From the NCBI GenBank assembly GCA_022730245.1, contig DZCK01000003.1, positions 1 through 48,878 of the forward strand: DNA of 48,878 bases, read 5' to 3'. A program made the translations under genes and the position numbers. The notes beneath the pieces were generated by a model. It was not told the origin of the DNA, made no database searches, and saw only the letters and a list, made by a program, of their open reading frames with translations. Origin of the DNA: Halothiobacillus neapolitanus. GTDB taxonomy: Bacteria > Pseudomonadota > Gammaproteobacteria > Halothiobacillales > Halothiobacillaceae. Within the stretch, counting starts at the first letter, position 1. Each line of letters opens with the position of its first letter. This document shows positions 1,857 to 3,163 of the stretch, one piece after another.

Positions 1857-2651
1857 TTAGAAGCTTTTGCTCAAAGACAACACCGCCGTTGGGCCGCCCA
1901 AGAACTTGCTCCCTGTGCCACCGGTGTAGGTATAGGCCGATTCCTTCGCATTGGTATCCACATAAGCCAAACTCACCGCCCAGCCCGGTGCAAAGGTGCC
2001 GGCAGGCAAGGTGTAGGTGGCGCCGAGTAACCAATCGGTATAGTTGTAGATGTCGTTGCCTGTGCCTTTAACCCACTGGTGGCCGGCATGCGCATTCAAC
2101 GTCACGGTATCGGTGAGCGGATAGGCGGCATCCAATTGCAAGTAGGTTGAGCCTTTGCTGTCGGCAGCGCCGAAGAAGTTATTGGTCGTTACGTTGTATT
2201 TAGCCGTTAACCACTTGTAGGTTGCGGCGACATGTAGTTCAAAGGTGTTGTATTTAACGCCAGAAGTACCAATAGATGAGCCGGGATAGTAGTAATACAG
2301 TCCGCCGACATCAAACGATAAATCAGGGTTAACTTTGTATACATAACCACCAAACCAGTCGGTTTCCATGCTCATGCCGTTATCTGGGCTGTTGTATACG
2401 TTCGTTGATACGTTAGAGCCCCAAAAGCCGGCATAAAAGCCCGCCGGTAAGCCTAAATTAATACCGACTTGGACTGCGGGTTTTTTGTAGGTTTGTGAAA
2501 TCCCCCGGAAGCGATAATCACTCACCACAGCCGCACTGCCTGTAACACTAACGGCAGGCGCCGCATCGTCTGCATACACGGCGGGCATTGCAAAACCCGT
2601 TACCGCAGCGACAACAGACGAAGCAATTAGGGACATTTTGAATTTGTTCAT
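1857..2651 (-). CDS. TorF family putative porin
   Basis: Predicted outer-membrane beta-barrel of 264 residues with a Sec signal peptide (MNKFKMSLIASSVVAAVTG, ending near AVYADD). The mature part starts with VTGSAAVVSDYRFRGISQT, the hallmark of the TorF / conserved Gcw_chp family, has alternating aromatic strands and ends in Phe. The start at 2651 is chosen because AGGAA lies 7 nt upstream; a start at 2666 would place residues before a normal signal peptide. It is the first gene of the operon with glnK and amtB, which suggests outer-membrane passage of a nitrogen compound; the substrate is unknown. Confidence 0.85.
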   Translation of the reverse strand: MNKFKMSLIASSVVAAVTGFAMPAVYADDAAPAVSVTGSAAVVSDYRFRGISQTYKKPAVQVGINLGLPAGFYAGFWGSNVSTNVYNSPDNGMSMETDWFGGYVYKVNPDLSFDVGGLYYYYPGSSIGTSGVKYNTFELHVAATYKWLTAKYNVTTNNFFGAADSKGSTYLQLDAAYPLTDTVTLNAHAGHQWVKGTGNDIYNYTDWLLGATYTLPAGTFAPGWAVSLAYVDTNAKESAYTYTGGTGSKFLGGPTAVLSLSKSF

Positions 2652-2700
2652 GAAACTATTCCTCATAAAAATCAGATTATGCGAGTTGCATCCGAGTCAT

Positions 2701-2716
2701 ATCAGGAAGTGTGCCA
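2701..2716 (-). promoter_or_regulatory. Sigma-54-like promoter of torF-glnK-amtB
   Basis: On the minus strand this reads TGGCACACTTCCTGAT, against the sigma-54 consensus TGGCAC-N5-TTGCW. The -24 half is perfect. The -12 half has GA in place of GC, which is a weakness. The predicted transcript start near 2690 gives a leader of about 39 nt before the porin ATG. The tandem NtrC-like sites upstream make the assignment much more likely. Confidence 0.55.
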
Positions 2717-2779
2717 AACATATAACCATCTGATTAATAACATTTATACTTTACGAGGAGGATTTGAAAACGAAGCTTT

Positions 2780-2794
2780 GCTTATTATTGGTGC
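2780..2794. promoter_or_regulatory. NtrC-like site (proximal, imperfect)
   Basis: GCTTATTATTGGTGC keeps the right half-site TTGGTGC of the NtrC palindrome (GCAC-N6-GGTGC), but its left half is degenerate. Its centre is 33 bp (about three helical turns) from the stronger site and about 97 bp upstream of the predicted sigma-54 start. Confidence 0.45.
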
Positions 2795-2811
2795 GCAACT
2801 GTTGCCCCATT

Positions 2812-2828
2812 AGCACTATTTTGGTGCT
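2812..2828. promoter_or_regulatory. NtrC-like site (distal, strong)
   Basis: AGCACTATTTTGGTGCT matches the NtrC consensus TGCACY-N4-TGGTGCA in the whole 15-bp core; only the two outermost bases differ, and they remain complementary. Its centre is about 130 bp upstream of the predicted sigma-54 start. This is close to the tandem enhancer geometry known for the enterobacterial glnAp2 promoter. It also lies about 85 bp upstream of the divergent ubiK start. Confidence 0.7.
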
Positions 2829-2911
2829 TAAACTACGCCTTGCAAGAATGCACCGAATCCCCAAGAATCCATTGCGTAACTCACTCGTTTTTATTCAAGA
2901 GGTTAAAAATT

Positions 2912-3163
2912 ATGTCGCTCGCCCACACCATTGAAGAATTATCGCAACGTATCGAACAAGCCTTACCCGAAAGCCTGAAACAAACTAAAAACGAAATGGA
3001 TAAAACCATTCGCCAAGCGGTGATGAATGCGTTTCAAAAAATGGAATTAGTAACCCGCGATGAATTTGATATTCAAACCCAGGTGCTAGCACGCACGCGC
3101 GCAAAGTTAGAAGCGCTCGAGCAGCGCGTCGCCGCGCTTGAATCCGCAAAACCAGCACCCTAA
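2912..3163 (+). CDS. ubiK: Ubiquinone biosynthesis accessory factor UbiK
   Basis: Small protein of 83 residues of the BMFP/YqiC family. UbiK helps the UbiJ-UbiK lipid-binding complex in aerobic ubiquinone synthesis. Seen here: an amphipathic N-terminal helix (IEELSQRIEQALPESL), the central FQKMELVTRDEFDIQTQVLA block, and a C-terminal coiled coil (LEALEQRVAALE). The ATG at 2912 has AAGAGG about 9 nt upstream; an in-frame upstream extension to 2840 has no such site and no family counterpart. It is divergent from the nitrogen operon and 49 nt before the comM-like gene. Confidence 0.9.
   Translation: MSLAHTIEELSQRIEQALPESLKQTKNEMDKTIRQAVMNAFQKMELVTRDEFDIQTQVLARTRAKLEALEQRVAALESAKPAP

Follow-up and report, generated by a model that had tools for sequence, protein, structure and literature searches.

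A putative NtrC- and sigma-54-dependent control region with an altered -12 element ahead of torF-glnK-amtB in Halothiobacillus neapolitanus

The torF-glnK-amtB locus and its candidate sites

Does the short stretch of DNA ahead of torF, glnK, and amtB place these genes under nitrogen control, and what is to be made of its imperfect -12 element? The window (the whole 48,878-nucleotide stretch of Halothiobacillus neapolitanus DNA that was analyzed) is contig C110 of a draft genome of 1,977,162 bases (1.98 Mb). It opens with torF-glnK-amtB on the minus strand, ubiK and comM/yifB diverge from torF on the plus strand, and the 260 bases separating the torF and ubiK start codons contain all of the reported sites. 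We consider it highly probable (about 0.92) that positions 2701 to 2828 are the control region of torF-glnK-amtB, switched by the Ntr system under nitrogen shortage via NtrC and sigma-54. The original prediction, which proposed an NtrC enhancer pair and a sigma-54-like promoter ahead of a porin-glnK-amtB operon, is supported by conservation and by the presence of rpoN and ntrBC; observed directly are the sites and their conservation, the association with glnK/amt at distant loci, and the rpoN, ntrB, and ntrC genes.

The first gene, torF (positions 1857 to 2651, minus strand), encodes a TorF/Gcw_chp family putative porin (NCBIfam TIGR02001, 152.2 bits against a cut-off of 47.15; Pfam PF09694). 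It is followed on the same strand by glnK (1491 to 1829), encoding a PII protein whose best match, NF007946, scores 177.5 bits, slightly below the cut-off of 181, and by amtB (171 to 1478), encoding an ammonium transporter (TIGR00836, 437.4 bits; cut-off, 343.3). The order and the families of the genes, as judged from these profile matches, are those of a torF-glnK-amtB (nlmA-like) operon. The divergent neighbor ubiK (2912 to 3163, plus strand) matches NF047835 at 89.9 bits, below the cut-off of 100. Translation of torF more likely begins at ATG 2651, for which AGGA at 2663 to 2660 would be the ribosome-binding site, than at ATG 2666, since in relatives the place of the first ATG is taken by TTG (L015) or holds no start codon (L019). 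This first ATG shares bases with the AGGA assigned to the second (window 2649 to 2666). A guess from the family name and the operon is that TorF may pass nitrogen compounds through the outer membrane.

Just upstream of torF in one relative (genome G001, contig C9:23262-23698; loci L015 and L160) lie two glutamine synthetase-like gene fragments, one of which carries an internal stop codon. Full glutamine synthetase-like genes are located approximately 12 kb from torF in four other genomes (G002, G004, G006, and G009).

The distal NtrC-type palindrome, AGCACTATTTTGGTGCT, lies at 2812 to 2828 with its center at -130 from the predicted start, and both the sequence and the coordinates of the NtrC-consensus match claimed there are correct. 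A second, weaker site, said to be centered 33 bp away, does exist and is now placed at 2779 to 2795 on the minus strand (CGCACCAATAATAAGCA; center, -97; 33 bp from the distal center); its right half is weak, which counts against the main reading. The sigma-54-type -24/-12 promoter, TGGCACACTTCCTGAT, occupies 2701 to 2716 on the minus strand, exactly where a sigma-54-like element with a perfect -24 had been predicted, with the -24 GG at 2715 to 2714 and GA in place of GC at -12 (2703 to 2702). Judged from the -12 position, transcription would start at 2690 on the minus strand, and the site centers relative to this +1, at -97 and -130, agree with the geometry first described (about 97 and 130 bp upstream). 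An IHF-like block, AATCAGATGGTTA, at 2723 to 2735 on the minus strand has one mismatch to the consensus WATCAA-N4-TTR. At the equivalent position, mismatches number 0 in three of the 10 genus genomes, 1 in the window genome, and 2 to 3 in the other six, and the block is thus a possible IHF site, a candidate unevenly kept across the genus.

The weights and the consensus used in NtrC scoring were our own. With one mismatch or fewer, GCACYA-N3-TRGTGC has a single match in the window, the distal site (0 mismatches), against 0.36 expected; exact matches number two in the entire 1.98-Mb draft genome, the distal torF site being one of them. Against a stricter 17-base form, TGCACCAWWWTGGTGCA, the distal site has 3 mismatches, a level at which 0.78 matches are expected. 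For the promoter, TGGCACG-N4-TTGCW with three mismatches or fewer gives 95 matches in the window versus 109 expected, with the torF site among those having 3. The -24/-12 match by itself is therefore not above chance, and the evidence is the combination of sites together with their conservation. Chance as an explanation of the whole arrangement, though true of the -24/-12 match alone, is rejected by that conservation. Perfect -24/-12 sites are partly due to chance too, since the canonical TGGCAYG-N4-YTGCW occurs 46 times in the 10 genomes versus 21 for a control.

Conservation and the gene served

The TGGCAY-N6-TG element is kept ahead of torF in all 10 Halothiobacillus genomes searched, whose TorF proteins are 64 to 93% identical to that of the window, and also in one sister-genus locus (L020); loci L027 to L039 were left out of the promoter comparison. 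The distance from the predicted start to the matched frame is 22 to 34 bases in 10/10 genus genomes. Each of the 10 also carries one NtrC-like site at -130 or -131 and another at -97 or -98. The two are always separated by exactly 33 bp, or about three turns of the helix, and the best site-pair score was equaled by 0/300 shuffles in nine of them and by 15/300 in the tenth (L014). Loss of the sites in close relatives had been named as grounds for abandoning the prediction, and no such loss was found, as both sites and the promoter are kept throughout the genus. Exact 33-bp spacing characterizes the genus. Elsewhere in the family the best pairs are spaced otherwise, which counts against the main reading: 22 bp in the sister genus (L020; sites at -117 and -95), and 51, 22, 15, and 23 bp in four loci of another genus (L021 to L024; shuffles as good in 3, 4, 8, and 0 of 300, respectively).

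The association of the promoter with glnK/amt extends to distant loci. The best 80 TorF relatives in named genomes were taken; two were from Halothiobacillus and the other 78 were counted, although some of these loci were incomplete. Genes for glnK/amt were recognized by motif within 3.3 kb downstream of torF, and the promoter was scored as TGGCAY-N6-TG within 300 bp upstream. The element was present at 53 of the 56 loci with glnK/amt downstream and at 2 of the 22 without, and an opposite-strand control found it at 1/78. Among the beta- and gammaproteobacterial loci examined, torF-glnK-amtB preceded by a sigma-54 promoter is thus widespread.

The divergent arrangement allows another reading, that the NtrC sites act on ubiK-comM or in both directions, and a gap of only 84 bp separates the distal site from the start codon of ubiK. 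This is highly improbable in our estimate. The site geometry suits the torF promoter, and in three genomes (G009, G001, and G002; loci L159, L160, and L161) both sites and the promoter are retained, with glnK and amtB after torF, while ubiK/comM were not found in the approximately 2.8 to 3 kb fetched upstream of torF. Because these genomes keep the sites without an upstream ubiK/comM, the sites are assigned to the torF side. In addition, a separate block, CTTGCAAG ... GATTCTT (TTGCAA-17-AAGAAT, window 2840 to 2868), precedes ubiK in 7/7 genus loci with ubiK and in 0/3 without it. Its distribution suggests that it is probably the promoter region of ubiK itself, perhaps a sigma-70 promoter, though it is absent from the list produced by the promoter scan.

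Regulators and known nitrogen-control systems

The presence of rpoN and ntrC in the genome, on which the original prediction also depended, was confirmed for both. The rpoN gene is single copy in the window genome and scores above the family cut-off in 10/10 genus genomes. Contig C67 carries ntrB and breaks off 288 codons into ntrC. The last 206 of approximately 493 NtrC residues, including the DNA-binding domain, are missing from the draft where this contig ends, which counts against the main reading. Full-length ntrC is above the cut-off in 8/10 genus genomes and is cut by contig ends in the other two (G000 and G001). A fragment on contig C217 was also considered as ntrC and was dropped, as it matched the ntrC model only and showed no match to the NtrC of the genus.

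The only other perfect NtrC palindrome of the genome lies before ntrB (L158:2513-2527), and AGGCATGCTCTTTGC, also before ntrB (L158:2656-2670), is a -24/-12 site with GC at -12. The palindrome and the -24/-12 site (L158:2484-2720) suggest that the ntrBC operon is autoregulated. The start of ntrB is probably GTG 2720 rather than ATG 2660 (L158 coordinates).

By analogy with the known Ntr system, NtrB would phosphorylate NtrC when nitrogen is short, and NtrC would assemble on the -130 and -97 sites. Looping of the DNA would bring NtrC to the sigma-54 RNA polymerase waiting at 2716 to 2701, which the NtrC ATPase would open. A nitrogen-dependent transcript would then begin near 2690 and would carry torF, glnK, and amtB together, yielding the putative porin, the PII protein GlnK, and AmtB.

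This type of switch is already well known. Escherichia coli glnAp2 has two NtrC sites, near -140 (130 to 140) and -108 (about 100), upstream of a -24/-12 promoter, an arrangement much like that predicted for the window. E. coli glnAp2 and glnK-amtB differ from the window in being without a torF gene and in having GC at -12. The glnK-amtB genes of E. coli are reported to belong to the NtrC-RpoN regulon (PMC3224663). A similar gene order is found in the nlmA (orf1)-glnK-amtB operon of Herbaspirillum seropedicae, described as a gene for a membrane-associated protein followed by glnK and amtB, and as NtrC dependent and approximately 21-fold upregulated under nitrogen limitation (PMC3023670). In the same broad bacterial group, TorF-glnK with a sigma-54 site occurs in Noviherbaspirillum (L070) and Herminiimonas (L068), with GC at -12, in contrast to the GA of the window. 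Our literature search found no paper joining the TorF family with glnK and amtB; among the matches listed, only unrelated work was found on the Gcw_chp/PF09694/TIGR02001/TorF porin family and nothing on the torF promoter. The comparisons firmly support placing ammonium uptake, and with it a putative outer-membrane porin encoded in the same operon, under nitrogen control in autotrophic sulfur oxidizers. The oddity of the locus is one apparently inherited -12 change, seen in close relatives too.

The -12 element of the torF promoter

The -24 GG in TGGCAY is present in the window and in 10/10 genus genomes. At -12, the G is kept at the correct spacing in the 10 genomes and the C is replaced by A (six genomes) or T (four genomes), so that the torF promoter is classed as sigma-54 type on its conservation and not on a -12 GC. 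The one sister-genus genome seen (L020) has GA. The element is GC in four loci of another genus of the family (L021 to L024), in L025 and L026 as read by eye, and in 53/53 distant sites. The caveat first attached to the imperfect -12 is right in that GA does stand for GC here, although it is not a strain defect, GA or GT being common to the genus and one sister-genus genome. From this distribution, the departure looks like an inherited change at the torF promoter rather than the decay of one strain, and the simplest history is a single change that predates the split between the two genera and has been retained.

The glnA promoter of the same Halothiobacillus genomes is likewise of the sigma-54 type with NtrC-like sites upstream. 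It differs in the base preceding GG, which is A (six) or C (two) at glnA and T at torF, and in its -12, which is GC in all eight readable loci, two glnA loci starting too close to a contig end. An altered sigma factor behind GA/GT is disfavored, as glnA (8/8 readable) and ntrBC of the window genome have GC. Across the RpoN proteins of eight of the 10 genus genomes (L061 and L064 left out of the alignment), the RpoN box and the helix-turn-helix region are identical.

Structures place the RpoN helix-turn-helix on the -12 site, with distortion of the DNA immediately downstream (PMC7057263), and the -12 change could therefore affect basal binding or opening. A weak or tightly activator-dependent promoter, as first suggested, is one possible result. 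It is possible, though we hold it only tentatively, that selection has favored GA/GT as a means of tuning the ammonium-uptake promoter of Halothiobacillus and its sister genus: the -24 of torF is perfect and its two enhancers are intact, whereas at glnA and ntrBC a GC at -12 goes with a weaker -24. If true, such tuning would give different NtrC thresholds inside one regulon. The lineage-wide loss of GC at -12 provides a natural test of the role of that base, as the same genomes hold GC promoters.

The change could alternatively mark a dying promoter, inactivated at -12 and replaced by another, and the C at -12 is reported as one of five rarely deviating bases in E. coli sigma-54 sites (PMC4591121). 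We regard this as very unlikely, because decay would have cost other key positions and the enhancers, yet all are intact in 10/10 genomes with TorF proteins as divergent as 64 to 93% identity to that of the window; moreover, some E. coli promoters whose -12 deviates from the consensus have been validated (PMC12316311). Least credible is a sigma-70 promoter driving torF, with the sigma-54 resemblance accidental: a pair, CTGATA-18-CATAAT, does lie at 2705 to 2676 (minus strand) and the -24/-12 match taken by itself does not exceed chance, but 1.0 such sigma-70 match is expected by chance, CATAAT is exact in just 2/10 genus genomes (L010 and L013) versus 10/10 for TGGCAY-N6-TG, and distant loci carry the same sigma-54 element.

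GA/GT may not be confined to torF, since a pattern built from the torF sites found eight further matches in 6/10 genomes and none in the window genome, with 0 matches for a reversed-pattern control. One 16-base sequence, TGGCATTCATCCTGTT, occurs at G001:C71:8995-9010 and G002:C73:1560-1575, both away from torF, and may be a further promoter whose -12 is GT, or else coding sequence.
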